Source of the DNA: Chrysochromulina tobinii
Taxonomy: Eukaryota > Haptophyta > Prymnesiales > Chrysochromulinaceae
NCBI GenBank assembly: GCA_001275005.1
Contig: JWZX01002661.1
Coordinates: 1 to 24,329 of the forward strand
DNA: 24,329 nt
Direction: 5' to 3'
In this document: piece by piece, positions 3,001 through 22,111 of the stretch
Layout: each line of letters opens with the position of its first letter
Numbering within the stretch: the stretch's first letter is position 1
The notes under the pieces: model-generated
The model's database searches: none
Told to the model about the DNA's origin: nothing
Seen by the model: the letters and a program-made list of their open reading frames with translations, nothing else
Made by a program: the position numbers and the translations under genes

Positions 3001-3345
3001 GATGATGGTGGTGGTGACGGCGGCGGAGGCGATGGCGGCGGGCGTGATGGCGGCTGAGGCGACGGCGGCGGAGGCGACGGCGGCGACGGCGGTCGTGGTG
3101 ACGGCGGTCGTGGTGACGGCGGTCGTGGTGACGGCGGTCGTGGTGACGGCAGGTAGGCACACATTGCGAACTCTGAGCCAGGGCCGCTGCCGTCGTCCGT
3201 GCACGAGCTGCCGCCGGCGATGAGGCATTTATTCATGCAGACCATGGCAGGGGAATGTGGAAGCGGGGGCGGTGGGGGCGGCAACGCGGTGCGAACGCTG
3301 CAGTCGAAGCAGTCGGTGCCGTACGCGCACATCGGGGGCACCGAA
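1..3345 (-). CDS. Modular secreted/cell-wall protein with Cys modules, trefoil domain and Ser-Pro-rich spacers (3' end off window)
   Basis: One minus-strand frame is open from 3578 to base 1 without a stop. In order it shows the end of a Cys module (MCAYGTDCFDC, about 3332-3298), a second Cys module (about 3239-3150), a long Ser-Pro spacer (3148-2665), a globular part (2660-2405), a short Ser-Pro spacer, a hydrophobic stretch after Met 2225 (MSRFACLLSMVFFAMAG), a full Cys module (CDDGGPG..YSVCDYGTDC, about 2070-1960), a Cys-containing region (1860-930), and a trefoil P-type domain (about 890-785; C-H-P-E-Q-G, ARGCCW, PWCF). Then come more Ser-Pro repeats and a beta-rich domain (664-185) ending RWQVVITSSY...VQFG, which is discoidin-like at best. 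Such architectures suit extracellular carbohydrate-binding or wall proteins. The true start is unresolved: the first Cys module lacks its N-terminal half, so an upstream exon is likely, with a possible acceptor near 3346. A separate secreted gene starting at 2225 is an alternative. Confidence 0.6.
785..890 (-). other. Trefoil (P-type) domain coding segment
   Basis: Within the large minus-strand frame this part reads RSDCHPEQGASESACAARGC, then CWVSGG..., then PWCF. The spacing of cysteines, the CC pair followed by W, and the PWCF ending match the P-type trefoil pattern found in secreted proteins and next to some glycoside hydrolases. I see no GH31 catalytic region in the window. Confidence 0.7.
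2665..3150 (-). repeat. Ser-Pro-rich coding minisatellite
   Basis: Degenerate 9- and 15-bp units encode SPPPP, SPP and SPRPP on the minus strand. Four exact 15-bp units lie at about 3089-3149, and four GGAGGAGGC-type units lie near 2672-2735. In plants and green algae such tracts are usually hydroxyproline-rich and glycosylated; that is family knowledge and is not shown here. The plus strand is Gly/Asp-rich in one frame, which I treat as a shadow. Confidence 0.75.
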
Positions 3346-3578
3346 CTGGGACTGCCGTTTGGGGATGCCACCCATGAGGATACTTGTACTTGCGATGGCT
3401 GCGCGCAGGCACGAAAACGTGTGTTAGCTGGGGCACGGGCGTTGGAGCTGGAGTGGGTTGCGAGTGTGGCAGGCGGTGACGTGTGTGTGGTGTGTGCGGT
3501 GTAGATGAAGGTGTAGCAGAGGCGCTGGGATGCAGAGCCCAAGCCATCATATGAAGTAGTGCTCTCGCTGAGGTGGTG

Positions 3579-5600: not shown

Positions 5601-8600
5601 ATGCCTGCAGCAGGAGCCACTGGTGCTCGTGCTGGCGCGGGCGCGGGCGCGGGCGCGGGCGCAGCTGCGGCTGCGACTGCGGCGGCGGCGGCGGCTGTGG
5701 CAGCGGCGGCGGCGGCGGCGGCGGCTGCTGCAGCAGCAGCTTTGGCGAGCGAGAGCTTGTTGGGTGGCGGCAGCGGCCGGATCGAGGGCGAGCTTGCTCA
5801 TGCCATCACGCACCAGAAGAATGAGTTCAAGGTCATCGCGCTCGACGAGGCCGGCAGGCCCAAGGGAACGGGCGGTGACGAGTGCGTGGTGCACGTGCAC
5901 CGGTGCGGCGAGGTGGTGCGGGTAAAGACGAGCGACAATGGCGACGGCTCGTACGCTGTGAGCTTCAACCCGGACACGTCTGGCGAGTACAGCATCGACA
6001 TCTCGGTGGGCGGCGTGCCGCTCACCGGCAGCCCGTTCAGCTGCCAGGCCTCCACGCGCACGCCGCACCCGCCCAATTGCTTGGTCTCCGGAGAGGCCCT
6101 TCGCAGGGCCGTGTCGCGCGAGCAGCAGTACGTTGGGCTTCGGGCCTCTTTGATGATCTCTGATGACCTCATTGATTGGCTCTGATGACCTCATTGATTG
6201 GCTCTGATGACCTCATTGATTGGCTCTGATGACGTTGGGCTTCGGGCCTCTTTGATTAGCTCTGATGAGCTCCGCTGAGTGCCTTTGATTGGCTCTGATG
6301 AGTTTCGCTGAGTGCCTCGCGACTCCTCAGGCACGTGGAGATCCGCTTCAAAGACGTGCTGGGCAACACGGCGCACGCGGCCGATGTGGACGTGTACGCC
6401 GAGCCCGTCGACAGCCTCGACCTGGCTGAGGCGGAGGAGGAGCTGGGCTTACCTGGATGGCTGCGCACCGGTCAGCCGGCGTCGCCTCGTTCGGCGCGCG
6501 GCGGGGCGGCCTACGGCTCGGCTCTTCACAGCCCCCGCCCCGCCCATGAGGGTGTTCACACCGCCAAGGTAAAGGTGCCGTTGGTCGTGCGAGTGGGGGT
6601 GGGCACCGACTCGGAGCGCGTGGGACAGGTGCGCGCATGCATTGTGATGGCCTCTTGATGGCATCGTGATGGCCTCTTGATGGCCTCTTGACGGCCTCTT
6701 GATGGCCTCTTGATGGCCTCGTGATGGCATCGTGATGCCTCGTTATTACCTCTTGATGGCCTTGTGATTGCCTTTTGATTGCCTCTTGATGCGTGTGTTC
6801 TCAGGTGCGCGCTGGCCGGACGGTGTACCTGCTCTGATGACCTCTGATGACCTCTGATGACCTCTGATGACCTCTGATGACTCTGAATTGCGTCCCTCAT
6901 CAGGTGCGCGCTGGCCGGACGGTGTACCTGCTCGAAGAGCGGACCGAGATTGCGGGAGATGGCGCCGACGGTCCGGTCGTGCGCGCCCTGATCGCCCTCG
7001 ATGCCGACGAGGCATCCGATCCATTCGAAGAAGATCGATGGCGCCTCGCGTACGCCGCCACGCTCGGCACGGCGCTCTGGGGACCGGGCACGTCGCCGGC
7101 GCACGTCGCCGACGCGCCGCTGGGCGCGCCGCGTGGCGGTGACGGCGATGGCGATGGCGGCGGCGGCGGCGGCGGCGGCGGTAGCGGCAGCCCGGGGCAG
7201 AGCTCTCTTCACTCGTCCTATTCGACGGCCAACTTGCTCGCTGCGCCGGTGGAGTCGCCTCATCGCTCTTCCCCTGTCGGGTGGGTGACGATCGCTACGA
7301 ATGGCCTCTGATGACCTCTGATGACCTCTGATGACCTCTTAATTGCGTCCCTCATCAGGTGGGTGACGATCGCTACGAATGACCTCTGATGACCTCGGAT
7401 GACCTCTGATGACCTCTTAATTGCGTCCCTCATCAGGTGGGTGACGATCGCTACGAATGGCAAGCTGCTTGTCACGCCACAGCGCCAGCTCGATGCCGGC
7501 GCACGCCAGCGACACATGGTCGCCTGGGCGCGCCGAAAGGCTGTGGACAAGACGATGGCGAGCTGGGGGCAGGGGCAGGAGGGCAAGAAGAGAGGCGATG
7601 ATACGGGCGGCGCCAAGCAGGCGAAAGTGCAACTGCCTTCCCGCTGGAAGCTCGGGGCCTTCTGGTCCGAGGTAGGATCTCCCTTGATTACCTCTGATTG
7701 CAACTGCCTTCCCGCTGGAAGCTCGGAGCCTTCTGGTCCGAGGTAGGATCTCCCTTGATTACCTCTAATTGCAACTGCCTTCCCGCTGGAAGCTCGGAGC
7801 CTTCTGGTCCGAGGTAGGATCTCCCTTGATTACCTCTGATTGCTTCTGGTCCGAGGTAGGATCTCCCTTCGATTGCCTCTAATTGCCCACTGAGTGCGCC
7901 TCTGATGGCTCTCTGATGGCTTTCTGAGTGCCCTTCTATGGCCTCCGAGTTGCCTCTGAGTGGCCTCCGATGACCTCCTTCATCAGGTGACCTCCGATGA
8001 GCTCGGGGTCGGCTTCCCTGATGACCTCCCTGATGACCTCCCTGATGACCTCCTTCATCAGGTGACCTCCGATGAGCTCGGGGTCGGCTTCGCCTTCGGC
8101 GGGCTCGAGCCAGGCCGATTGCATGCTAAGGGCAAGTGCATCGACGTGCACAAACTCTTCTACTCGATCGGGCGTGCCGGCCGGTACGTGACCCTTGATT
8201 ACCCTTGATTGCCACTGATTGCCCTTGATGGCCCTTGATGGCCCTTGATGACCCTTGATGACCCTTATGGCCCTTGATGGCCCTTGATGGCCCTTGATGG
8301 CCCTTGATGGCCCTTGATTGCTCTTATGGCCCTTGATAGCCCTTGATGACCCTTGATGGCCCTTGATGGCCCTTGATGACCCTTGATTGCCCTTATGGCC
8401 CTTGATGGCCCTTGATTGCTCTCGTACTCAACTTGGGTTCGTCCCTCCCATATATGGTACGTGCCAGATACAAGCTCCACATCGGGCTTCGTCACACGAA
8501 GAGCCCGCTGCCCGGTTCCCCCTTCGACTTGGTGGTCGTGCCCGGCCCCGCCTCCGCGGTCACGACGATGGTGCCCAGGGGCATCCCGAAGCGCGGTTAC

Positions 8601-11600
8601 GTGGGCAGCAAGAAGGACGACGGTGGCTTCGAGATGAGTCTGCGCTCGTACGACTTCATGGGCAATCGGTGCGTCGAGGGCGGTGCGAAGCTCAAGTGCA
8701 TGGCTGTGGGGACCGCAGGCGCCGTCTCGGCGGATACGGTCGACAACGGCAACGGCACTTACACATGCTCGTGGCATTCGGAGAAGGCGGGAAAGCACAA
8801 GGTGCAGGTGCTCATCGGAGATGAGCAGGTGAGCTGCGCTTGATTGCGTCTGGGTTATGTCTTGATTGCGCTTGATTGCCATGGCTCGAGCTCACGTGAT
8901 TGGATCTCCCGCCCTCGAGCTCACGTGATTGGATCTCCCGCCCTCGAGCTCAGGTGATCGGATCTCCCTTCCTGCTCGAGCTCACGTGATTGGATCTCCC
9001 TTCGTGCTCGAGCTCACGTGATTGGATCTCCCGCCCTCGAGCTCAGGTGATCGGATCTCCCTTCCTGCTCGAGCTGCTGCCCTCCGAGCCCGCCCTCGAG
9101 CTCACGACGATCAGCGGCAGCGGCCTCGAGCGCGTCGTGGCGGGCGAGCCGTGCACCATCTGCGTCAAGCTCGTCGACCAGTTCGGGAACCCGATCCCAC
9201 TCAACGAGTCGCTCCGATTCGGCTTGGCACTGCTCCCCGCAGGTGATTGCATGCGTGATTGCATCCGTGATTGCATCCGTGATTGCATGCGCAGCTCCGA
9301 TTCGGCTTGGCACGGCTGCCACGTGAGAATACGCGGAGGACGAGGCGCAAGTCGGACCAACATGAGGGCAAGTGCATGCACGTGCTCACTACGGCGCCCT
9401 CTCCCCACAGGTGAGAATGCGCGGCGGAAGAAGCGAAAGTCGGACCAGTATAAGGGCAAGTGGGACCGGAAGCAGCAGCATTATGAGATGACCTACTTGC
9501 CCACGAAGACTGGCGAGCTGCAGCTGCACCTCTGGTGAGTGCGGCCGCAGTGGCCGTAGATTGCCCACCTCATCACATGATTGCCCACATCATCACATGA
9601 TTGCCCTCCTCATCATCAGGTACGAGACGCGCATCGAGGACACCAAGCGCTGGCAGCGCACCCAGCTCCCCGGCTCGCCGTTCACCGTCATGGGCGCCTC
9701 GGGCAAGTGGCATGCGTACAGCAGCACCGTGCGTGTCGAGTGGGCGGAGGACGCGCACGACAAGCCGCAGATCATCGACCCGAACGACGACCTGCCCGAT
9801 GACGTCCCATGCGGATCGATGGTCTACATCCGGCCTCAGGTGATTGCCCTTGATGGCGCTTGATGGCCCTTGATTGCCTCTGATGGCCTCCGATGACCTC
9901 CTTCGTCAGGTGAAGGACCAGTTTGGCAACCCGGCGCCCGATGATGGCAATCTCACAGTCGAGATCGTCGGCCCAGATCGCATCTCGAAGGTGCTCGACG
10001 TCAAGCAGACTGCGGATGGGCTGCTGGCCAAGTACGAGACGCTGCTCATGGGCATGTACTGGCTCGACGTGCTGCTCAACGGCACACCAGTCCAGGGCTC
10101 CCCGATGACGTTCAAGTGAGTGCCTCCACACATGATTGCCCGCCTCATCAGTCCAGGGCTCCCCGATGACGTTCAAGTGAGTGCACTGCCTCTGAGGGCT
10201 GATGGCCTCTGATGCTCGCCCTATGGCCTCTGATGACCTCTGATGACCTCTGATGAAATCTGATTGCTTATGCGAGTGCCTCCTGATGACCACGTGATCG
10301 GCTGCGCTTCTGTGCAGGGTGGTGACCGGCTCGGCGGATGGCGGGAAGAGCGTGGTCGAGGTGCCCAAACGTCCCTTGTACGAGGACATCTGCTACGAGG
10401 TGGTCCTGCGCACGGTGGACCGATTAGGCAACCGTTGCGATCGGTCCACCGCGACGGTAACGGCGAGGCTGCTGCCGAGCATCACCGGAGGCAAATTGCC
10501 CGATGGGCAGAGCTCGATCATCGAGGTGGATGATATGGAGGATGGTACGCGCACTCTGATGACCTCTGATGACCTCTGATGACCTCTGATGGCCTCTGAT
10601 GACCTGTGATGGCCTCGGATGGCCTGGGATGATATGGAGGATGGTACGCGCACTCTGATGACCTCTGATGACCTCTGATGGCCTCCTTCATCCCTCTGAG
10701 TGTCATCTGATGAGCGTCGATGGCGCCCTTTCCCTCAGGTACCTTTGTCCTCGACGTCGAGCTGGTGTCCGAAGCGGACGTGAAGCTCATCGTCACGATC
10801 ACGGTGCCGGGCGATAAGCCGCAGGAGATGGCCGCCGTCCCCTTGCGCTTCCTCCGCACCGGAGCGGACCCCAGCGAGAAGGGGGAGCTCAAGCTCGCCG
10901 TGGAGCAGAAGAAGAAGGCCGTCGCCGACTCCAAGGGGGACAAGAAGGGCGCCGTGGCGGGCGCCGCCAAGAAGGCGGGTGGGAGCGCCGTGGTGGGCGC
11001 CGACAAGAAGTCGGTTCAGATCGACGCGTCGGCGGGGGGCAGCGCCGTGGTGGGCAGCGATGCGGGCGAGGGCGGTGGCAAGGGTCATCTCGGTGGCGTG
11101 AGACTGGACACGCCGATGGCGCGCTCGCTCGCGGCCAAGGCGGATCTCGCCGAGCGGGAGCTCAATGCGAGATCGGAGACGGTGGCGGCAGCGAAGCTCG
11201 AGCGGCAGCAAGCGCTCGAGGAGGAGGCGGCGCGCAAGGCGGCGCAGGCGCAGGCGGCGCAGGCGCAGGCGGCGGCCGAAAAGGCGGCGGCGGCGCGGGC
11301 GGAACGGGCGGAGGCGGCGGAGGCCAAGGTGGCAGCCCTCGCATCGAGATCCAATCTGAGCGCCGAGATGAAGGCGGAGCTCTCGGCGCTGCGGGAGGCT
11401 GCGGCGGCGGAGCGGGCGCATGCGGACTTGGCGATGGCGGAGGCGGCGGCGGCGGCCAAGGCGGCACGCGAGCTCGCGGGAGCTGCTGCGAGGGAGGAGG
11501 AGGTGCGCATGAAGGCTGAAGTTCTGATGACCTCTGATGACATCTGATGGCCTCTGATGACCTCTGATGACCTCTGATTGGCTCTCTCATCAGGTGCGCG

Positions 11601-12042
11601 CCAAGGCGGAAGCGCTGGCCAAGTCGAGGGCGGAGCGTGAGGCGGCGATGGCGGAGAGGGCGGAGGCGAAGAGGGCGGAGGAGGCGAAGGCCATGGGTGC
11701 GGCGGCCGCCAAGAAGGTGGCTGATGCGGAGGCGGACGTGAAGCGCTCGGAGGAGAAGTGGGCGGCAGAGGCGGATCGGAAGGCGGCGGAGGTGGCTCAG
11801 GGTGCGGCGCTGGCTGCCAAGAAGGCGGAGGAGGACATTGCCAAGGCGAGGACGGATGCGGAGCGAAAGGCTCTTCGCGACAAGGCGGCGGCCGCGGCGG
11901 CCGCCGACAAGGCGGAGGAGGCGAATGTGCGCGCGCAGGTGACGGCCATGGGCAAAGCGGAACATGCGGCGATGCGGGAGGGCGTCGTGGCGGCGATGGC
12001 GGAGCATGAGATGGCGGTGGCGGCGGCGGCCGAGGTGGAGAA

Positions 12043-12078
<36 letters not shown>

Positions 12079-15000
12079 CAAGTCGGAGAGGGAAGACCAG
12101 GAGCGAATCGCGGCGATTGCGGCGGCCAAAGCCGCACAGCGTGCCAAGGCGGACGAGGCGGCTGAGCGCGCGGCGCAGCTTGAGGCGAACGCGGCGCGTA
12201 AGAAGGCCTTGGCTAAGGTGGCTTCCGCCTCGAGCATCAAGTCGGCCGAGGCGGAGGCCGAGGCTGCCGCCGAGGAGGCGGCGGCGGCGCGGGAGGCGGC
12301 TGTGGTAGAGCTCGCGGCTGCGGCGGAGCTCACGGCAGTGGCGCACACGGCGGTGCTCAGGCGCACTCACACGAGCATGATCAAGGCCGAGACCGCTGTG
12401 AGCGCGTCGCTTGGTGCGTCCGAGGGCGAGGCGGTGCTCAATGCGGCACGGGACGCGGTGCGAATGGAGGCCGAGGCGGCCGCGGTGGCGATTGAGACGA
12501 AGGCGGAGCGCAAGGCGCGCGAGGCGGCCGATCGCAAGGCGGCGAGGCAGGAGGCCAAGGGCGCCACGCAGGACAAGGCCGCCATCGAGCTACAACAGAA
12601 GCTCGAGGCGGTGCAGAAGGCGAAGGCGGTACGGGAGACGGTGGCGGCGGAGGCGCCCAAGCTGCCGGCGCCCAAGCTGCTGGCGGAGGCTGGCGGCGGC
12701 GGCGGCGGCAAGGGGGGCGGCGGCAATGGGGCCAAGGGGGCTGAGGGCGGCAAGGGGGGATACGCGAGCCTTGATGAGGCTGATGACGCCGGCTATTCGA
12801 GCCCTGATGACGATGATGACGACGATGACGACGACGACGACGCGTCCTTGGATCCGAAGGCGAACAGGGCGCTGGCGGCCAAGTAAGGTGCGGCGAACGA
12901 TGCAAAGGCGAAGGCCAAGGCGGCGGCCGAGAAGGCCAAAGCCGAGGCCGATAAGAAAAAGGGCGGCAAGGGCGCGGAGGACAAAAAGTCGCCCAAAGGG
13001 GGCGCCGTGCTGGGCGCCAAGGGTGGAGAGGCGGATGACAAAGGTGATCTGGAGGACTCGGGGCAAGGCGACGTGGGCAGCGGCATTCGTATGAAGAAGA
13101 CGGTGAGGGCAATGATGAGGGCACTGATGAGGCCACTGATGGACGCTGATGGCCTCTGTGATGGCCTCTGATGGACACTGATGGCCTCTGTGATGGCCTC
13201 TCTGATGGCCTCTGTGATGGCCTCTCTGAAGGCCTCTCTGAGGCCTCTCTGATGGCCACGAATGAGCACTGATGGCCTCTTTGATGGCCTCCGATCGCCT
13301 CTGATGGCCCCCTGTGCCCCCCTCGATGCGACTCAGGTGTACGCGAAGCTGCTGGTCCAAAAGGCGCGAAAGAAGCTTGCGAACGAAGTCCGTGCGTGCT
13401 CCGTGGAGAACGAGGCCTTTGGCAAGACCCAAACCGAAAAGTACTTGGGCGAGACGCACAAGAAGGCGGAGGCCATCGCCGCGGGCAAGGCCGAGATGAA
13501 ATCGGCCATCGAGGGGCTCCGAGTGCATAACCTCGAGCTCGCCAAGGAGCTCAAGATCAATCTGTCGCAGCTGCAGGTGATTGCATGCGTGATTGCATGC
13601 GTGATTGCATGCGTGATTGCATGCGTGATTGCCAAGGAGCTCAAGATCAATCTGTCGCAGCTGCAGGTGAGTGCACACTGCGTGCCCTCTGAGTGCCCTC
13701 TGAGTGCCCTCTCAAAGCCCTCTGAGTGCCCTCTGAGTGCACACTGAGTGCCCTCTGAGTGCCCTCTCAAAGCTCTCTGAGTGCCCTCTGAGTGCACACT
13801 GAGCCCGTGGGTCCCGTCGCGTGGTGGCTTCCACACACAGGCCGAGGCGCGAGATGCAAAGCTGTCTGAGCTCGCCAAGGCGAGATTGCTCGTCGAGCAC
13901 GCGAAGGCCATCCAGTCGCCGCGTACCTTGGAATCGCACCGATCCGTCATTGAGGCGAATCAGAAGAAGGCCAAGCAGGTGCGTGAGCTCTGATGACCTC
14001 TGATGACCTCTGATTGCCTCTCTCATCAGAAGAAGCCCAAGCTGGTGCGCGAGCTCGAGGAGCCCTGCCACTCGCTCGCATGCAAGCGCTCACTACGGCG
14101 CTCCCCTCCTCCTCCTCTTCACAGGTGCGCGAGCTCGAGGAGCTCTGCCACTCGCTCGCATGCAAGCGCTCACTACGGCGCTCCCCTCCTCCTCCTCTTC
14201 ACAGGTGCGCGAGCTCGAGGAGCTCTGCCACTCGCTCGCAGACGCGGCGGAGGCAAGCACCGCCGCGTCCAAGAGACTCCTCGTCGGCAAGATCAAGATT
14301 GGTGCGCCTCTCGCCTCCAATCTCGGCCCAATCTCGCCTGCAATCTCGGCCCAATCTCGCCTGCAATCTCGGCCTAATCTCGCCTCCAATCTCGCCTCGC
14401 AGAGATCGGAGCTCCCGCGCTCGATGCGTCGCGCGCGGTCATCACGGCGGAGAGGTTCGAGATCCGCGACGCCGTGCGCCAGGTGATTGCGCTTGATTGC
14501 GCTGGATGGCCCTGGATGGCCCTTGATGGCGCTCTTGATTGCGCTTGATGGCCCTTGATGGCGCTCTTGATGGCCATTGACCGCGACGCCATTCGGCAGA
14601 TGATGCGCGAGGGTGAGAGCAAGATTGAGCAACATAAGTCCGCCGTGCGCACTGAGCGCCGTAGCAAGCACGAGCTCGTCGACGAGTTCAAAAAGGGCGC
14701 GAAAGGCGCTCGGACTGCCCTCTCGTCGCGCCGTAAGGAGGATGCTGATGGGCTACGATCCAAATCGGGCGACCTGTCGGAGCTGCGCTCACAGTCGATC
14801 ATTGAGACGGTGCGAGGGCCTCTGATGACCACTGATGACCACTGATGATGACCTCTAATGACCACTGATTGCCAGTCCACCATTGAGACGGTGCGAGCGA
14901 ACCGGCTGGCGCGCGACGGCGTGCCGCCGCCACGCATGCAGGCGCTCACCACGGCGCCCCATCCTTCCCCACAGGTGCGAGCGAACCGGCTGGCGCGCGA

Positions 15001-15169
15001 CGGCGTGATCGAGGACCGCTCGGCGCCCTCGCAGACGTTGCCGCCCAAGGAGATCGCGCATGTGCCTCTGCCTCTCCAGTACCGTCCGCCCAGCACAGCG
15101 CGTCGGTCGAATCGGTCGGCCTCGCCCAAAAGCAAGCGCTCCGCGCGCAAGCAGCTCAAGTCGCGCTGA
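5601..15169 (+). CDS. Filamin/ABP280-repeat and coiled-coil cytoskeletal protein, 19 exons
   Basis: Exons: 5601-6127, 6331-6628, 6904-7280, 7437-7671, 8062-8183, 8468-8828, 9047-9242, 9411-9534, 9620-9839, 9910-10115, 10318-10544, 10739-11502, 11594-13102, 13337-13576, 13841-13978, 14205-14301, 14403-14482, 14600-14809, 14975-15169. They sum to 6126 nt, 2042 codons, with every junction in phase. After a poly-Ala/Gly N-terminus, residues about 74-150 form a filamin repeat (DNGDGSYAVSF...GSPF). Four or five more Ig-like repeats follow to about residue 1010, marked by GSPF/GSPM and DNGNGTYTCSW. Then comes an Ala/Glu/Lys coiled coil (about 1100-1640), an Asp run, and a basic coiled-coil tail ending SPKSKRSARKQLKSR. 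Filamin repeats normally crosslink actin or scaffold proteins; no N-terminal actin-binding CH domains are visible, so a ciliary or structural scaffold role is an inference. An in-frame TAA is codon 1650. The start is the first ATG after an in-frame stop at 5547. Confidence 0.8.
6128..6330 (+). repeat. Filamin gene intron 1
   Basis: Donor GTACGT, acceptor CTCCTCAG, phase 2. The 5' end (from 6130, ACGTTGGGCTTCGGGCC) is repeated 102 bp downstream at 6232. Between the copies a 22-bp unit (CTCATTGATTGGCTCTGATG + AC) is repeated three times. Confidence 0.75.
6629..6903 (+). repeat. Filamin gene intron 2 with copy of next exon start
   Basis: Phase 0 (Q/V). The first 30 bases of exon 3 plus the preceding CAG occur exactly at 6802-6834, 99 bp upstream of the true exon start at 6904. 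That copy runs directly into CTCTGATGAC decamers. The 5' half is a CTTGATGGC-type array. The upstream copy is also a perfect candidate acceptor, but it would lead to a stop. Confidence 0.75.
7281..7436 (+). repeat. Filamin gene intron 3: two tandem 78-bp units
   Basis: The intron is exactly two head-to-tail 78-bp units (7281-7358 and 7359-7436) that differ at two positions. Each begins with the first 23 bases of exon 4 (GTGGGTGACGATCGC...) and ends ATTGCGTCCCTCATCAG. Each unit therefore has its own donor and its own acceptor. Confidence 0.85.
7672..8061 (+). repeat. Filamin gene intron 4 with donor array and acceptor duplication
   Basis: The last 42 bases of exon 4, its donor (GAG/GTAGGATC) and following intron sequence form a 71-bp unit starting at 7630, 7701 and 7772, with a partial fourth copy near 7843. 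At the 3' end a 75-bp duplication (7987-8061) repeats the start of exon 5. Four potential donors and two acceptors result. Confidence 0.8.
8184..8467 (+). repeat. Filamin gene intron 5, CCCTTGATGGC array
   Basis: Donor GTACGT, acceptor GTGCCAG, phase 2 (R-Y). About 8195-8425 is an array of more than twenty 9-12 bp units of the form CCCTTGATGGC, with variants ending in ACC or TTG. Confidence 0.75.
8829..9046 (+). repeat. Filamin gene intron 6 built from copies of the exon 7 start
   Basis: About five units of 28-34 bp (CTCACGTGATTGGATCTCCC-type) precede exon 7. They are diverged copies of the first bases of exon 7 (GTGATCGGATCTCCCTTCCT). One copy at 8951 even has CAG/GTGATC, 93 bp upstream of the real acceptor, but reads into a stop. 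Confidence 0.75.
9243..9410 (+). repeat. Filamin gene intron 7, in-frame and stop-free
   Basis: 168 bp, a multiple of three with no stop in the coding frame, so retention would add 56 residues. It holds GTGATTGCATGC units and then, at about 9294-9374, an uninterrupted diverged copy of the exon 7 end joined to the exon 8 start (junction 9322/9323). It ends with the shared 3' module (9374-9410). Confidence 0.7.
9535..9619 (+). other. Filamin gene intron 8
   Basis: 85 bp, phase 2 (W). Donor GTGAGT, acceptor CATCATCAG. The centre has two near-identical copies of a 20-bp ATTGCCCAC..ATCACATG unit. Confidence 0.75.
9840..9909 (+). other. Filamin gene intron 9
   Basis: 70 bp, phase 0 (Q/V), the shortest intron of the gene. 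Made entirely of CCTTGATGGC- and CCTCYGATGACC-type units, ending CTTCGTCAG. Confidence 0.75.
10116..10317 (+). repeat. Filamin gene intron 10 with duplicated donor
   Basis: Phase 2. A 36-base segment spanning the end of exon 10 and its donor (CAGTCCAGGGCTCCCCGATG...GTGAGTGC) recurs 61 bp downstream at 10149. The copy is preceded by CATCAG and followed by GTGAGT, so it is bounded like a cryptic 28-nt exon. Confidence 0.75.
10545..10738 (+). repeat. Filamin gene intron 11, 99-bp duplication
   Basis: Phase 1 (G). The exon 11 end and donor (GATGATATGGAGGATGGTAC) recur 99 bp downstream at 10628. Both copies are followed by CTCTGATGAC decamers. Confidence 0.75.
11503..11593 (+). repeat. Filamin gene intron 12 starting with a diverged copy of exon 13
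   Basis: Phase 0 (E/V). The first 24 intron bases match the first 24 bases of exon 13 at 18 positions. CTCTGATGAC decamers and CTCTCATCAG follow. This looks like an older duplication than intron 3. Confidence 0.7.
12884..12886 (+). other. In-frame TAA inside exon 13 (codon 1650)
   Basis: The frame reads ...ALAAK, TAA, GAANDAKAKAKAAAEKAKA... The downstream 72 codons of the exon keep the same Ala/Lys/Glu composition and splice in frame to six more exons. GTAAGG resembles a donor, but every nearby AG lies at the wrong phase for a short intron. Possibilities: a true truncation (1649 residues), readthrough, or a CAA-to-TAA change or sequencing error. Confidence 0.75.
13103..13336 (+). repeat. Filamin gene intron 13
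   Basis: Phase 0 (T/V), donor GTGAGG, acceptor GCGACTCAG. Mostly GATGGCCTCTGT and CACTGATGG-type units from 13110 to 13310. Confidence 0.7.
13577..13840 (+). repeat. Filamin gene intron 14 with exon-end copy
   Basis: Phase 0 (Q/A). The exon 14 end (GCCAAGGAGCTCAAGATC...CTGCAG) is repeated exactly 90 bp downstream at 13631-13666, separated by four GTGATTGCATGC units. CCTCTGAGTGCC units follow. The first 100 bp are open in frame, so use of the second donor would add 30 residues. Confidence 0.75.
13979..14204 (+). repeat. Filamin gene intron 15: three 80-bp units
   Basis: Units start at 14045, 14125 and 14205 (the last is exon 16). Each begins GTGCGCGAGCTCGAGGAGC, and the two intronic ones carry the shared 3' module ending TTCACAG. 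The first is preceded at 14027 by a copy of the exon 15 end, giving an uninterrupted exon 15-exon 16 junction inside the intron. Confidence 0.8.
14302..14402 (+). repeat. Filamin gene intron 16
   Basis: 101 bp, phase 1. Five to six units of the form AATCTCGCCTGC/AATCTCGGCCC, ending CTCGCAG. It is unusual in lacking TGAT units. The neighbouring acceptors CAGAG and CGGAG would give different joins; the CAG before 14403 keeps frame and gives KIKIEIGAPAL. Confidence 0.6.
14483..14599 (+). repeat. Filamin gene intron 17 ending in a copy of exon 17
   Basis: Phase 0 (Q/M). TTGATGGC-type units fill the intron. Its last 21 bases (ACCGCGACGCCATTCGGCAG) are a diverged copy of the last bases of exon 17. 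Confidence 0.7.
14810..14974 (+). repeat. Filamin gene intron 18 with uninterrupted junction copy
   Basis: Phase 0 (T/V). After ACTGATGACC units, 14876-14923 is a copy of the exon 18 end joined directly to the first 33 bases of exon 19 (junction 14890/14891). The shared 3' module (14934-14974) follows. Confidence 0.8.
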
Positions 15170-15691
15170 GCTGAGCGCCGAGCTGAGCGCCGAGCTGAGC
15201 GGGGTGAGCTGTGAAAGGACGGGCTGTGAAAGGACGGCGCCGAGAGGGAGAGACGAGGCCATGTAACCACCGTATCGAATGCGTGCTGAGGCGTGGCGGC
15301 GGGGGCACACGGCATGTGAACGGCATGTGTGGGTGCTGCTCGTTCCTCGAGTACGTAGAGTCGAGGAGCATAGACGCTGGTCGGAGCTCGGATTTTACCC
15401 CGAGATTTTACCCGGGGCCTGAGATAGTGACGAGACATGACGAAACGAGAGTGAGGGAGAGAGAGCGAGACCGTGTATGCGATTTCGTTTGAGAAGCGAT
15501 TACAAGTACGTGTTCATGCGTGATGCGATGCGATGTGTCTTGTGTGTGCCGCGCCGCAGCCGCCGGTTCTGTTCGTCGTAGTAAACTACAAGCAGCAGGT
15601 CGCCCCTTTTCCCCTAATCAGCTCCCACCCGAAGCTCGGGCGACGGGGTGGGATGATTTGGGATGAGACCAGGAGCGGCACATGCACCCGA
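15170..15691. other. 3' flank of the filamin gene and spacer
   Basis: No coding sequence seen. Just after the stop, GAGCTGAGCGCC is repeated three times (15171-15200), then TGTGAAAGGACGG twice (15210-15237). GATTTTACCC occurs twice near 15391-15412. No clear polyadenylation signal. Confidence 0.5.
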
Positions 15692-15724
15692 CACGGCGCG
15701 CGCGCGCGCGCGTCGTCTATATAG
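15692..15724 (+). promoter_or_regulatory. Alternating CG run next to a TATA-like box
   Basis: A run of alternating C and G (about 15694-15711) is followed by TATATAG at 15718-15724, only 14 bases before the ATG at 15738. At the usual 25-30 base spacing, transcription would begin inside the reading frame, so either the box is not used or the real start is further downstream. Confidence 0.35.
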
Positions 15725-15737
15725 AAAATCGCCTTCG

Positions 15738-17402
15738 ATGGCGGCCGAAGAAGCGAGGCAGGCAGCATCCAAGCATTCTTCTGCCAATTGGCGCGCTCTC
15801 CCGCATCATCCGTATCAGGTGCTGCCGAGCGAAGATCACGTCAGGAAGTGCGCGCTCGTCAACCAGGCTTATGCTGAAGCATTGCAAGCATGCCGCAACG
15901 ATCCGTACCTCTCTGCCAAGCTGCAGGTGGTGCAAGATCCGCGCAGCCCTTTTCACTGGTTCATCCACTTCAGAAACTTGAGCGCGGCTCCTTTCGATTT
16001 GTTCAAGAGTGGCATCTACGGCCACATTCAATTTTGCTCCGTGGGCCGCATGGACAAGACAAAGAACCGGCCCTTCCTCGTGAAGCAGCCCGCAGTTGGC
16101 ATCTTGACGCCAACGGCAATCTTCACCAGCTATAAGCCGGACGGATCGCTCAGCACCGGTGCGAAGGACATCGGCATTCCTGGGGTATGCGGCACGGCCT
16201 ATGCGGACGAGCATATCTATCGCATGGCCATGAATGACGTGTTTAATGACCACCCTCTGCAAACCGGAGTCACCTACACGTGGAACTCCGAGGCCTCGGT
16301 CACCGCTCAGGAAGATGTGCTGGAAGTCGCCAACAGTGGTGGCGAGTACGGCCGCTACCTGTGCCCCATACTCCGTTATCGCAGCTCCATCACCACTTGG
16401 CTGGCGCAGCTCGTCATGCTGCTCGACCTTAACATGAGCCCTGCCGGGCCACTCGTCGGGAGTCGCTTCGACGGCATCAAGGCCTTCAATGGCGGGCCGC
16501 TTGAATACAAAGCCATAACCGACGCGGCCGATGCTAGCGTTCATTGGGCTCAGTCTGCCTACTGCGGACAGCTGCTCGCCTTATTTGAATCTGTGTACGC
16601 GGTGCCGCCACCTCTCAACCGTGCACCGCCGACAGCTCCTTCGCCCGTACGTTGGGCGGCAGCCGAGGCAGCGGCAGCCGAGGCAGCGGCAGCCGAGGCA
16701 GCGGCAGCCGAGGCAGCAGCAGCCGAGGCAGCAGCAGCCGGGGCAGCAGCAGCCGGGGCAGCGGGCGCATCGACGGCGGCCGAAGAGGCTCAGGCAAGGG
16801 CGGCAGTAGCCATACCGATGGTAGTCATCGGCGATGCAGTTGGGGAGGATTCCGAGATTCCCATCGGCGAGCTGGTGCAAGTCAACGATGCGACCGCCAG
16901 TACCGCGGCGGACGCCACGGTCGAGCTGAGCTACCGGTATACGCGTGCGTGTGCTGCGGTCAAGGTGGACCCAGACGCAGCAGCCACTCAACTCGGCGCT
17001 CACGGATCGATTCGCCGAGGATTCACTGGTTGCGCTCCGCGCGCGCTCGCCGTGCTGCCTGTGCTCGAGGCTGAGGGCGTGCTGCAGTCAGTGAGGCAGG
17101 CGCCCTGCCGTCGCGCGAGAGATGCTGTAGCAGTACAGGCGAGCAGTACAGGCCAGCAGCCGGCGGGGCAGCCGAGATCAAGGCGCCAGCGTACTTTGGA
17201 GGCGTCGCCCGCAATTAGCCTTCAGTGCGGGCAGCGAGTCAGCTGCGTCTTCGAGCACGACGGTGCTGCGACTGTGTTTCACGGCGCGGTGACGAGTGTG
17301 AACACCGAATTCCGCAATTGCGAAGTGCTTTTTGACGATGGACGCTCGCACCGCGTGGCGATCGCAAGGCTCACGGCCCTTGAGCCCTTTAGTTACGAGT
17401 GA
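15738..17402 (+). CDS. Unrecognised intronless protein with EAAAA linker and Tudor/SH3-like C-terminus
   Basis: 554 codons from ATG 15738; an upstream in-frame ATG at 15663 is possible. Residues 1-300 form a dense globular domain that I do not recognise (HPYQVLPSEDHVRKCALVNQ, PRSPFHWFIHFRNLSAAPFD, CSVGRMDKTKNRPFLVKQPA). Then come a Pro linker and five exact or near AEAAA units (15-bp repeats, about 16660-16735) turning into AGAAA. The last ~60 residues (GQRVSCVFEHDG...EVLFDDGRSHRVAIARL) look like a small beta-barrel of the Tudor/SH3 kind, which often binds methylated peptides or nucleic acid. No transmembrane segment or signal peptide. Unlike both flanking plus-strand genes it has no introns, which may mean a retrocopy or a gene of different origin. 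Confidence 0.65.
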   Translation: MAAEEARQAASKHSSANWRALPHHPYQVLPSEDHVRKCALVNQAYAEALQACRNDPYLSAKLQVVQDPRSPFHWFIHFRNLSAAPFDLFKSGIYGHIQFCSVGRMDKTKNRPFLVKQPAVGILTPTAIFTSYKPDGSLSTGAKDIGIPGVCGTAYADEHIYRMAMNDVFNDHPLQTGVTYTWNSEASVTAQEDVLEVANSGGEYGRYLCPILRYRSSITTWLAQLVMLLDLNMSPAGPLVGSRFDGIKAFNGGPLEYKAITDAADASVHWAQSAYCGQLLALFESVYAVPPPLNRAPPTAPSPVRWAAAEAAAAEAAAAEAAAAEAAAAEAAAAGAAAAGAAGASTAAEEAQARAAVAIPMVVIGDAVGEDSEIPIGELVQVNDATASTAADATVELSYRYTRACAAVKVDPDAAATQLGAHGSIRRGFTGCAPRALAVLPVLEAEGVLQSVRQAPCRRARDAVAVQASSTGQQPAGQPRSRRQRTLEASPAISLQCGQRVSCVFEHDGAATVFHGAVTSVNTEFRNCEVLFDDGRSHRVAIARLTALEPFSYE

Positions 17403-17611
17403 CCCGTGACCGTCCCGAGAGGGAACAGGGAGGGCGCGGCTCTTCCGTTGGCCTCGGCGGTCGGCGTGTGAGAAAGAACGCCTTGCTGAGCGCCATCCCT
17501 TTGATGCGAGTACTCTTTCGAGCAGGTCACCCTTCGTTTACCACAACACTCCCTCGATTGTAATTCAAAGGTTCAGAATTAACGCCGGTTCCGGAGCTTT
17601 CCCAATTTCCG
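17403..17611. other. Intergenic spacer
   Basis: About 210 bp between two co-oriented genes. It holds the 3' end of the first and the promoter of the second; a less GC-rich stretch lies at 17530-17580. No recognisable motif. Confidence 0.4.
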
Positions 17612-19088
17612 ATGCTCTGGACGGGAACCGGTACGGCGCGTTCCGTCCGCACGGCAATGGCAGCGCCGCTGACATCCATCGCTGGCGATGCACCCGACTC
17701 CTTCGCTGGCGATGCACCCGACGCCTCGTTGGCGGCAGACGCCGAGCTGGAGGCCTCGGTGGCACAGATCTTCGAGTCACTTCGGGTGCTGGACGACCAT
17801 ACGGAGGCGCTCGAGGCCTACGATGCGGCCGCCGAGGATGAGCCCGACTGGCTCCTGCAAGCGACTGCGGCGGTCAAGCACATTTCGGCCGTGCCCGTCA
17901 GCCCGGCGGTGCCGCCAGCGCTCGGCGAGAGGCAGATCACGTGGGACGAGAAGGCGGCGACGGTGCAGTTCGAGATCACGTCTGCGGGCGGTATGCCGAA
18001 CATGGACGTGGGAGCACTCGCGTGGATCGACGCGCAGCTCGTGCCCATCGTCGCGCGCTCGTTCCCACATCTCGCACGCCTCGTCACCTCCCCCGACAAC
18101 GACGCGGACACAGCCGAGGACTACGCGCGCGAGCTGCTCAAGAAGCGAGACGCGCTGCTGCTGCGCAAGCGACAAGTCAGAGAAGAGGTCGTGCAACGGA
18201 GCGCGGTCGGCGCCGTCTCGGCAGAGCTTCGAAAGGAGGAGCATGAGGCGCACGTGCTACGGATCGCCACGGTCAAGCAGGCAAGCGGCCGTCACGAAAG
18301 CGTCACCCGACCTTACCACCTTGGCCCCCGACCCTCAAATTCACATTCACAGCGTCACCCGACCTTCACACCTTGGCCCCCGATCCTCTCAAGTTCACAT
18401 TCACACTTATGACCACCTTTGGCCCCCGGCCCTCGCCCTTATTTGCTGTCTCCGCGCACCTGTGGGGAAAGGGTTGCGTCGTGAGCTCTTGCATGCTGGA
18501 CCCGACCCTCGCGCTCATCCGCTGCCTCCCCGCCCCGGTGGGCCCCGTCGCAGGCGCGCGAGTACGCGGCGCTGCGGGATCAGCTCGATGCGACGATGGA
18601 AGTGGCGCGCGCCACGAGCGAGGCGGCGCGCACCATCTTCGACGAGCATCTGCGCGACGTGCAGGTCATGGGCCTTGAATGCCATTGAATGCCATTGATT
18701 GCCATTGATGACGCTTTATTGCGCTTGATTGCCATTGATTACGATTGATTGCTCTTGATAGCTCTCGAGGACTCTTGATGGCTCTTGATGGCTCTTGATG
18801 GCCATCTGAGTGCTCCCCAGAATGAGCCGTGATTGCACGCGTGATTGCATGCGCAGCTCCTCCTGTCCGAGTTACGTCGGCTGGACGCTGATTGCATGCG
18901 TGATTGCACGCGTGATTGCATGCGCAGCTCCTCCTGTCCGAGTTACGTCGGCTGGACGCTGGGGTGGCGGCCGCTGCCGAGTCGCAGCTATCTGCTTCGC
19001 AGGCGCAGCTGGCGGTGCGAAAGCGGCAGGCGCAGGCACAGGCGAAGCAGCAGCAGGCGAAACCACAAGGCGCCGTCATGGGCGCCAA

Positions 19089-19119
<31 letters not shown>

Positions 19120-19630
19120 AGCTGGGCACGCAAGGTGCGGGTGATCGCCATTGATTGCCATTGATTGCATGCGTGATTGCATGCGTGATTGCATGCGGCG
19201 AGGGCAGCTGGGCACGCCAGGTGCGCTCCTTTTCGTTTGGGGCGGCGCGGGGACGGTACCGCCTAGCATGCAAGTGCTCATCACGGCGCCCTCTCCCCCC
19301 AGGTGCGCTCCTTTTCGTTTGGGCGGCGCGGGGGTAGTCACCCGAAGGGTGAAAGAGGCCTCGCAGTGACGCCCACCGCCGGCATCCACAACACACGTTA
19401 CAGCTGCACCGCGCCCGAGGAGATGCATCCCATCTCGTACGACGCGCTCTCTCCTGAGCACGTGCCAGGCGCCGTGTCGGGCGCGCCTCAGGACAGGCCC
19501 CAGACGATCGATCGCGTCAAGGGGGCCTGGAGCGACATGGCGGCTTCCGTCGGCGAGGGCGTCGAGGATGTCAAGAGTGCTGTGCGGTCTCTCTCCTTTA
19601 GGCTGCGCGGACGGCAAGCGAAACACGGTT

Positions 19631-20189: not shown

Positions 20190-21062
20190 CTACATGTAGT
20201 CCGCCTTGACCTTCCGCCCCAGGTGCCATAGCGAGCTGGCGAAGAGGAGGACGTTGACCGAGGTGAGTGGGTAGTTGATGGGGCTCACCACGAGGCCATA
20301 CTGGGAGAAGATCAAGCCAGTGAGCGTGAGGGCGGAGTACTGCGACAGCGAGATCTTCTCGGTCGGCTTGTCGTACTCGAGCATTGAGGTGCCGGAGATG
20401 AGGATCTTCGTGACGGGTGGCCACGGGTGGATGGTGAACGGGCCGCCCGCCGACGAGAGGAACGCCGGCCCAATCGGCGCGACCACGCGCTGGATCGCCG
20501 GGCCCGCGATCACCAGACCGGTGACGATCGCAGCGCCGGTCGCTGCCTTCGTGGCCAGCTCGGTGATCTCCTTCTTGGCGGCCTCGCCGCCGTGCTGCAG
20601 CTTGTACTCGAGGACGCGGCGCAGCTGGTTCGACTGTGCGATTACGTTGAAGATATGCGAGCCTGCAAGCACGTAGTTGCGTGGCGCCACCGCCCAGCCC
20701 GCCCACCTGGCGAAGAGCGACGAGTAGCAGAGCATGACGCACGTCATCGGCAACGAGATGACCTCGGCGCCCTTTTGCGAGGCGTCGTAGACGGCCGAGC
20801 CGCCCAGGAACCAGTTGCAGCACGCGCCGAAGAAGCCAAACCGTTTCACCGGCGAGCTGTTGGCTTCCGCAAACTCGGAGGCCACCTTGGAGGCGATCCT
20901 CTGCACAACGCCGGGCTCGGCGGCAGGCGGTGGCGGCGGAGGCGCGGCCGCCTTGGTGCACAGCTGGCGGCCGGTTGCAGCTGCTGTGCCGGCCAATCCA
21001 AAGCGGGCGAGCCGCGTCGGCAGCAGCGTGCTCGTGACAAGACGGCGGAGTATGGTAGCCAT
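20190..21062 (-). CDS. MPC: Single-chain mitochondrial pyruvate carrier: MPC1-like + linker helix + MPC2-like
   Basis: 290 residues, intronless. Residues 1-35 (MATILRRLVTSTLLPTRLAR...) are Arg-rich without acids, a typical mitochondrial presequence. Residues 71-155 match MPC1: NWFLGGSAVYD, a P/E-type loop, CYSSLFARWAGWAVAPRNY, and a Q..QLRR ending. Residues 206-290 match MPC2: GPFTIHPWPPVTK, DKPTEKISLSQYSALTLTGL, IFSQYGLVVSPINYPL. Between them, 175-199 (TGAAIVTGLVIAGPAI...) is hydrophobic enough to span the membrane. MPC imports pyruvate into the matrix across the inner membrane and normally works as a heterodimer of two ~110-130-residue proteins. ATG 21062 is chosen because the presequence starts there; the frame stays open upstream to 21167, overlapping the neighbour's stop. 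Confidence 0.85.
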   Translation of the reverse strand: MATILRRLVTSTLLPTRLARFGLAGTAAATGRQLCTKAAAPPPPPPAAEPGVVQRIASKVASEFAEANSSPVKRFGFFGACCNWFLGGSAVYDASQKGAEVISLPMTCVMLCYSSLFARWAGWAVAPRNYVLAGSHIFNVIAQSNQLRRVLEYKLQHGGEAAKKEITELATKAATGAAIVTGLVIAGPAIQRVVAPIGPAFLSSAGGPFTIHPWPPVTKILISGTSMLEYDKPTEKISLSQYSALTLTGLIFSQYGLVVSPINYPLTSVNVLLFASSLWHLGRKVKADYM

Positions 21063-21163
21063 TCTTTTTTTGCGTCGTGAATCAGATGTTGATTGCAAAA
21101 GAAAGATCTGAACATAATCTCCATCGCCCACCGAAAGTGCAGTGTAATGCGAGCCTGGCCTCG
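21063..21163 (-). promoter_or_regulatory. Short promoter region of the pyruvate-carrier gene
   Basis: Only 101 bp separate the EF-hand gene stop from the carrier ATG on the same strand, so the carrier promoter must sit here or inside the upstream gene. An A-rich leader (minus strand, AAAAAAAGA) lies just before the ATG. No TATA box seen. Confidence 0.4.
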
Positions 21164-21904
21164 TCATGAGCGCTGCTCACCAATCGTGGCTATGATCGTA
21201 TCCGCAAGCCCTTCGCCCGCCTTGAGGAACTCTTGCCTGTCGACGGTCCCGCTGCCGTCCTCGTCGAAGAGACACCAGATCGCGTCGATGGTGGAGCGCA
21301 TCTGCGCGACGCGCGCCGGGTCGCTCGTCAGCTGTAGCGTCTTGAGCAGCGCACGCACCACCTCCTCCTTATCGAGAGCTCTCGAGGAGTCCTCGTCCCA
21401 GTAGTCGAACCAAGCGTTCCGATCCGTGCGGATGTCAGGGATGCGCTCGTCACGGCGCCCCGCCACCACCTTCGTCACATGCTCGACGAGCTGTGGAAGC
21501 TCGTGCCGCTCGATGAAACCGCTGCCATCGCGATCGAACTGCTCCCACCATCCTGGCGCGGAGGCGGCGCGGTCAAAGGCATCCAGATCGACCGGCAAGA
21601 TCGCCTTGAGGGATTCAACCACCTCCGCGTGCGACAGCTTCCCATTACCGTCAAAGTCGACGGTGCCAAACCAGCCGTCGGGGTCCGAGCGGATGTCTGG
21701 AACCTTCTGGACGGAGTGGATGGGTCTCCTAGTGAGCGGGCAGGTGATGATTCCGTTTGCGAGCATCTCGCGCGCCGCCGCGAGATTATAAAAGTGCTTG
21801 CTCACGCGCTGGCCTGTCGCGTCGAGGAAGACGCCGATCTCGCCCCGGCACAGGGGCTCGAAGCAGATGGGGCACTCCGCGTGCTGCAGCGCCACAGATT
21901 CCAT
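21164..21904 (-). CDS. RING/U-box-like and four EF-hand calcium-binding protein
   Basis: 246 residues, intronless. Residues 11-60 (CPICFEPLCR...H37...CPLTRRP) are a degenerate RING or U-box: C11, C14, C19, H37 and C55 are visible, too few for certain zinc binding. Four EF-hand loops follow: 83-94 (DFDGNGKLSHAE), 124-135 (DRDGSGFIERHE), 170-181 (DEDSSRALDKEE, position 6 Gly replaced by Arg), 214-225 (DEDGSGTVDRQE). Loops 1, 2 and 4 have all ligand positions; loop 3 may bind weakly. The repeated PDIR(S/T)D...WF motif before EF-hands 1 and 3 shows an internal duplication. Possibly a calcium-regulated E3-type ligase or sensor. The frame continues upstream to 21946 without an ATG, so ATG 21904 is the start. 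Confidence 0.75.
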   Translation of the reverse strand: MESVALQHAECPICFEPLCRGEIGVFLDATGQRVSKHFYNLAAAREMLANGIITCPLTRRPIHSVQKVPDIRSDPDGWFGTVDFDGNGKLSHAEVVESLKAILPVDLDAFDRAASAPGWWEQFDRDGSGFIERHELPQLVEHVTKVVAGRRDERIPDIRTDRNAWFDYWDEDSSRALDKEEVVRALLKTLQLTSDPARVAQMRSTIDAIWCLFDEDGSGTVDRQEFLKAGEGLADTIIATIGEQRS

Positions 21905-22111
21905 CGTTCGGCGCGCGCTCGCTTTGCTCACGCTCACCCAAGGCAAGTCAAGTCAAGTCAGCTCCGGTGATCGCGTTACTTTGCTGCTCTGCAGTGCACT
22001 CGCTCAGCTCGGCTCCGTGGGGGTCACTTTGACTTGATTTGTCTTGCTTGGGTCGTCGCCCCTCCTTCAAAGGCTTTCTCAAAAGCCGACAAGCAGGCTC
22101 CGTCCGTCGCC
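21905..22111. promoter_or_regulatory. Divergent promoter with 18-bp inverted repeat
   Basis: 207 bp lie between the ATG of the minus-strand EF-hand gene and the ATG of the plus-strand gene. GCAAGTCAAGTCAAGTCA (21943-21960) faces its inverted copy TGACTTGATTTGTCTTGC (22030-22047); 16 of 18 positions pair, with 69 bp between. The symmetry suggests a shared factor site serving both genes. Confidence 0.55.

Follow-up and report, generated by a model that had tools for sequence, protein, structure and literature searches.

Introners of Micromonas and Aureococcus are reportedly the subject of Huff et al. 2016. In general, introners are repeated short introns that occupy unrelated sites; in some families the element itself brings the 3' splice site, and the 5' one is drawn from duplicated target sequence (Gozashti et al. 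2022, PMC9860276). The target duplications of earlier introner families measure 3-9 base pairs (bp), those of Chrysochromulina sp. introners in the TARA metagenome are 4-bp duplications next to an element that carries the 5' splice site, and terminal inverted repeats occur in part of the families without being required (PMC9860276). Here we analyse a stretch of 24,329 nucleotides (nt) from the haptophyte Chrysochromulina tobinii, hereafter the window, in which four introns each contain a contiguous copy, or echo, of their own exon-exon junction, followed by an element called y that is dispersed through the genome. We conclude that these echo introns are probably two-layer structures, in which y was inserted with target duplication and the donor side was then duplicated. 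The window is the whole of contig C1505 (no N; 64.5% guanine plus cytosine, G+C), and the genome searched was a 53.15-Mb assembly of 2,253 contigs, which is a part, or another version, of the published C. tobinii assembly of 59 Mb, 3,472 contigs and 63.4% G+C (PMC4580454). A literature search found no account of the y family, nor of exon-junction echoes in this species; the supplementary tables of PMC9860276, which may list C. tobinii, lay outside its coverage.

We write A for the end of the upstream exon and B for the start of the downstream exon, A' and B' for their intronic copies, x for a minisatellite spacer, y for the dispersed element and b for the few nucleotides of the start of B at the outer copy, with a slash at each splice site. 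When the joined exon ends (60+60 nt) were locally aligned to each intron, one contiguous echo was recovered from each of the four introns, as the original prediction had claimed, and all four junction positions that it had named were reproduced (Table 1). The four share the anatomy A/b-x-A'B'-y/B, and the reading frame is preserved over all four splices. Upstream of each echo, x is a minisatellite with 10-12-nt units such as TGATTGCATGCG or CTCTGATGACC. Echo 1 has a 3-nt gap at its junction and about a dozen substitutions, and in intron 2 the B'-y unit is doubled into an 80-nt tandem. Echo arms scored 15, 21 and 23 for A and 20-35 for B, compared with best control scores of 11 (upstream exon ends) and 13 (downstream ends) in 420 cross-intron comparisons of 35-nt exon ends of other introns with the intron. 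The A arm of intron 3 lies below the cut of 13 used in that test (2 mismatches in 25), yet it is plain in direct alignments. An automatic echo flag fired for only two of the four introns, and it missed intron 2 because the best B match there is the second B' copy. At echo intron 1, the final bases of exon A (9231-9242, CTCCCCGCAG) are unlike the echo and by eye resemble the 3' end of y, so the event there probably changed the protein.

Table 1. Echo introns and duplications lacking y in the window (positions of the window; echo and junction given for echo introns)
Feature	Position	Strand	Echo	Echo junction	Parts and remarks
Echo intron 1	9243..9410	+	9294-9374	9322/9323	x 9243-9293; A' 9294-9322; B' 9323-9374; y core 9374-9397; tail to acceptor 9410
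Echo intron 2	13979..14204	+	14025-14080	14044/14045	b 13979-13990; x 13991-14024; A' 14025-14044; B'-y twice, 14045-14124 and 14125-14204
Echo intron 3	14810..14974	+	14873-14923	14890/14891	b 14810-14816; x 14817-14872; A' 14873-14890; B' 14891-14923; y core 14934-14957; tail to 14974
Echo intron 4	19135..19302	+	19195-19252	19220/19221	b 19135-19139; x 19140-19194; A' 19195-19220; B' 19221-19252; y core 19266-19289; tail to 19302
Donor-side duplication without y	10088..10184	+			36-nt exon end and first intron bases; copies 10088-10123 and 10149-10184 with short minisatellite-like spacer between; no B duplicate; intron 10116-10317
Donor-side duplication without y	10528..10685	+			59 nt, offset 99; intron 10545-10738
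Donor-side duplication without y	13541..13675	+			45 nt, offset 90, around GTGATTGCATGC units; intron 13577-13841
Acceptor-side duplication	6801..6933	+			TGATGACC minisatellite replaces y core; intron 6629-6903

The y element is made up of a core, GCATGCAAGTGCTCACCACGGCGC, followed by C/T-rich sequence whose length varies and by CCCCACAG, which lies at the acceptor. Searched on both strands with up to 3 mismatches, the core matched the genome 1,239 times forward and 1,310 times in reverse (2,549 matches), compared with 1 + 1 for the same pattern read backwards. Our sample of y loci took 60 stretches from the first 100 listed places, all exact matches on low contig numbers, together with the window and 200 kb taken from the starts of contigs; after exclusion of L028 (the same place as L008), L001-L007, and matches without 200 nt of upstream or 80 nt of downstream flank, 86 loci were counted. 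Conservation of the core in this sample is partly built in by the search pattern, whereas that of the left edge and the acceptor end is not. At 51 of the 86 loci a B' copy (score at least 10) lies just upstream of y, as it does in 1 of 300 random pairings, and these loci show an intron-like B'-y-B layout with flanks that differ between loci; counted in the 51 are the repeated B' of window intron 2 and a few tandem copies (L048, L053, L058). In the 47 rows with a clean start, B' has a median length of 30 nt, with quartiles at 21 and 35.5 and a range of 10-103 whose upper end belongs to a tandem locus; the y intron has a median length of 80 nt (5-95%, 65-93). Eight rows with 100% identity, besides two L053 tandem rows and the second B' of window intron 2, have B' lengths of 20-44 nt.

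The first bases of B' are GT in 37, GC in 5 and CT in 1 of the 43 rows that start no more than 2 nt from the junction, and before the 37 GT donors the exon ends in AG in 16 rows and in CG in 11. Because B' mostly starts with GT and y ends at the acceptor, the duplicate would supply the 5' splice site and y the 3' splice site. Judged from these sequences, y appears to behave like an introner that carries the acceptor and draws its donor from an unusually long target duplication. It resembles described introners in forming similar introns at many unrelated positions and in carrying the 3' splice site, but differs from them in the median length of 30 nt and the variability of its duplication and in the presence of a second duplicated layer; it also differs from the Chrysochromulina sp. 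introner, which carries the 5' splice site where y carries the acceptor (PMC9860276). By eye, the column profile of y shows no terminal inverted repeats, with GCATGCAA at the left end and CCCCACAG at the right. Other arrangements of y include L054, with copies on both strands, one of them with a flanking 31-nt duplication, and L047, with four y-like cores in succession.

We propose that, in what we infer to be the earlier layer, an introner-like and presumably mobile y would have entered an exon A-B, by what may be a mechanism of the staggered-break and fill-in type, and about 30 nt of the target would have been duplicated to yield A-B'-y-B. The duplicate would provide the 5' splice site with its opening bases, mostly GT, and y would supply a branch-point-like CTCAC (a candidate, identified by reading), a C/T-rich tract and the 3' AG, such that splicing A/GT(B')..y-AG/B would restore the message. 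In the second layer, the region spanning that 5' splice site would have been duplicated, the copies being separated by x, a TGATTGC/TGATGACC minisatellite, to produce A/b-x-A'B'-y/B; the outer donor would then be used, and A'B' would be a remnant of the former exon. A' and B' would be joined in the echo because a copy of exon B forms the start of the y intron, and a y intron undergoing donor-side duplication would therefore necessarily show A'B' joined.

Both layers occur separately, and their combination recurs elsewhere in the genome. An upstream A copy, called at a score of at least 19, was found in 11 of the 51 B' rows, compared with a 99th percentile of 13 and a maximum of 16 in 393 cross-locus controls. 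With L054 set aside, where a reverse-strand y serves as spacer, 10 y-type echo rows remain: the four window introns and six outside (L038, L050, L051, L056, L073 and L081). L050 has an extra A copy inside x, and L056 has one upstream. The x layer alone is seen in window introns 10116, 10545 and 13577, which lack y (Table 1), and the y layer alone in 40 of the 51 rows, in which B' adjoins genomic exon A and no second A copy passes the cut. These 40 rows bear on the idea that a spliced message, as complementary DNA (cDNA), was captured by an existing intron, which would account for the resemblance of the echo to a spliced junction. We rejected cDNA capture, to which we assign almost no probability, on the ground that it does not explain B' attached to genomic exon A in these rows; moreover, in 8 of the 10 y-type echoes the outer A copy runs on into the first 5-12 nt of B. 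Chance or a single assembly error as the source of the echoes is likewise out, with echoes at 10 of 51 rows and base differences between the copies in most. A broad scan for A-x-A'B'-y-B across the window, seven small loci and 200 kb of contig starts returned 36 rows on both strands, which by eye were for the most part mirror images and repeats of coding or satellite type; beyond the window, the minus strand of L020 was the one convincing case. Among the 21 introns of our hand-made window gene model (in which 6132-6340 and 8829-9073 are tentative), 8 have an A duplication (7 by the cut, plus 14810), 9 a B duplication and 5 both, where about 3.4 would be expected under independence; thus two common processes suffice. 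Four of these 5 contain contiguous echoes, and 7672-8061 does not.

The original prediction had explained the echoes by tandem multiplication of A-B, with splicing from the first junction to the last and internal copies left in the intron. The contiguity and register of A'B' would suit such a history, and comparable fission-yeast introns made of tandem repeats have been published (PMC3629103). Tandem multiplication nevertheless predicts equal spacing, and the A-A' and B'-B distances differ in 11 of 11 echo loci. It also predicts spacers that run from B to A, but x, a minisatellite, is unlike its own exons in 9 of 11 loci (L056 and L050 have further A copies), and y, whose core is found across the genome, is unlike them in 9 of 11 (the others being window intron 2, with its second B' copy, and L050, with a weak match). 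We therefore rejected this explanation, very improbable given its foreign spacers and unequal spacing. What remains of the predicted record of intron birth is that duplication of exon ends contributes to these introns and that the echo is best read as the formerly uninterrupted exon. The fission-yeast introns of SPOG_01682 and SOCG_00815 are similar in that an exon is duplicated at a new intron and the introns are built of repeats, but they consist of duplicated exon, or of exon plus the end of a parental intron, whereas the C. tobinii spacers are foreign (PMC3629103). Introns from tandem genomic duplication, furthermore, have AGGT at the duplicated junction, which is not required here, AG/GT being present at 1 of 11 echo junctions.

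As to the order of the layers, neither A nor A' ends in AG in 6 of the 10 y-type echoes; no precise acceptor would therefore have been present there before y, which favours y first. Divergence between copies tends in the same direction: across 12 loci, L054 and L020 among them, A copies have 12 differences in 382 positions and B copies 23 in 412. An alternative order, in which an x-type insertion first made an intron with the end of A' as acceptor and y arrived later with a duplication spanning that acceptor, fails to account for the echoes without AG, and we consider it unlikely as a general explanation. It is plausible for L051, where A' ends in AAG and x has its own GT, and an echo-less x-A' intron is seen by eye in L008. 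It is likely for the minus strand of L020, which has no y core and a B' that does not start with GT.

Several observations weigh against a two-layer history with y first. The L020 case itself has echo topology without y, with A' ending in CAG and B' starting with GC, and in window introns 2 and 3 and in L054 the order of divergence is reversed, the A copies being more diverged than the B copies, as would be expected if x came first. No B' duplicate was found at 35 of the 86 y loci. The second layer is present in four of four y introns of the window and in 6 of 46 rows elsewhere, an excess that our model does not predict; four out of four is also the reason why the window was noticed. A search of the C. 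tobinii genome for an intron-free copy, made with two of five joined flanks, matched only the query locus. Finally, splicing from the outer donor in the echo introns is deduced from their sequence.

Homologous proteins bear on whether the echo is included in the product. The window gene holding introns 1-3 encodes filamin repeats and is matched by the public C. tobinii protein Ctob_008325; the next gene, holding intron 4, had no Pfam match in the piece tested. The closest homologues at junctions 1-3 have no echo-like insert. At junction 1 the closest, P0001 (57% identical), crosses with an equal number of residues, P0002 and P0006 are a few residues longer, and P0003, P0004, P0007 and P0008 are roughly 10-20 residues longer, with charged residues that lack the repeat of the flanking motif expected of an included echo; the alignment of P0005 stops short of the junction. 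P0144 is gap-free across junctions 2 and 3, Ctob_008325 splices junction 2 exactly as we assume, skipping the echo, and at junction 4 the support is the reading frame. These proteins argue against use of the echo itself, either as a small exon or as a recursive splice site with acceptor and donor abutting at A'/B'. Such use might be suggested by the AG that lies 15 nt (a multiple of 3) before the junction in window introns 2 and 3, by intron 1, which at 168 nt is stop-free if retained, and by AG/GT at the echo junction of intron 4. But the extra residues it predicts are missing from P0001 and P0144, introns 2-4 contain stops when retained, and 10 of 11 echo junctions are not AG/GT. We find use of the echo hardly credible, and recursive splicing as a general rule was rejected on the single AG/GT among 11 junctions. 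Ctob_008325 ends in ...SIIETVRGPLMTTDDH, a read-through into echo intron 3 (14810-14840); this end inside the intron is an annotation error. The public model also lacks VHNLELAKELKINLSQLQ (window 13520-13576), which is kept in the model used here and at part of which P0144 has residues, and it bypasses an in-frame TAA at 12884-12886 that breaks the long coiled-coil frame of the filamin-type gene, beyond which that same frame stays coding-like.

Introns with border repeats in other organisms offer further comparisons. Daphnia introns attributed to staggered double-strand breaks likewise have direct repeats of exon ends at the opposite intron end, and young ones contain further internal repeats read as later breaks, much as two layers are read here; their repeats, however, are 4-12 bp, with no shared inserted element in the available description, whereas C. 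tobinii has repeats of 20-50 nt and a dispersed element (PMC4202315). The introner elements of Amoebophrya, a marine protist, are invasive repeated introns with direct repeats at their borders, but these repeats are 3-5 nt, and the elements also have unusual splice sites and inverted repeats measuring 8-20 nt, whereas y has no inverted ends by eye and mostly GT-AG borders (PMC7789003). The long and variable target duplications of y argue against an ordinary transposase of fixed length. More tentatively, y may represent an introner class with a new mechanism: a minimal module for 3' splicing (the 24-nt core and tail), pasted into staggered breaks with variable overhangs of 20-50 nt, in which fill-in would make the 5' half of the intron. 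Donor-side duplications with minisatellite filler might then be further events of the same type in introns that were still young, and each echo intron would be a layered record of events that followed one another at a single junction, with the pre-intron exon kept inside.

Duplications lacking y are not limited to those of Table 1. Among the matches listed, L013 and L020 by eye contain further donor-side duplications with x between the copies. At 7628-7869 of the window, the exon end and first intron bases stand in tandem in about three copies of a 71-nt unit and a shorter one, which is a multiplied donor-side duplication. Acceptor-side tandem duplications with a minisatellite and no y core lie at 7281-7436 (78-nt unit) and 18828-18961 (71-nt unit). 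Elsewhere in the window, the minus strand holds a mitochondrial pyruvate carrier gene (20190-21176) with a 99% identical protein in ENA data, an EF-hand protein (21164-21952) and a proline-rich frame with a trefoil domain (3-3578). The named relatives of a neighbouring gene come from the haptophytes Haptolina brevifila and Coccolithus braarudii.

The origin of new introns is a long-standing question, and the traces of their formation usually decay. In one sequenced alga we find about 2,500 matches to an apparently intron-forming element. In many of these the target duplication can still be read, and in a subset two layers are stacked. The structure of echo introns explains why at least one public gene model, that of Ctob_008325, is wrong, and the long, variable duplications make a break-and-fill route to new introns testable.

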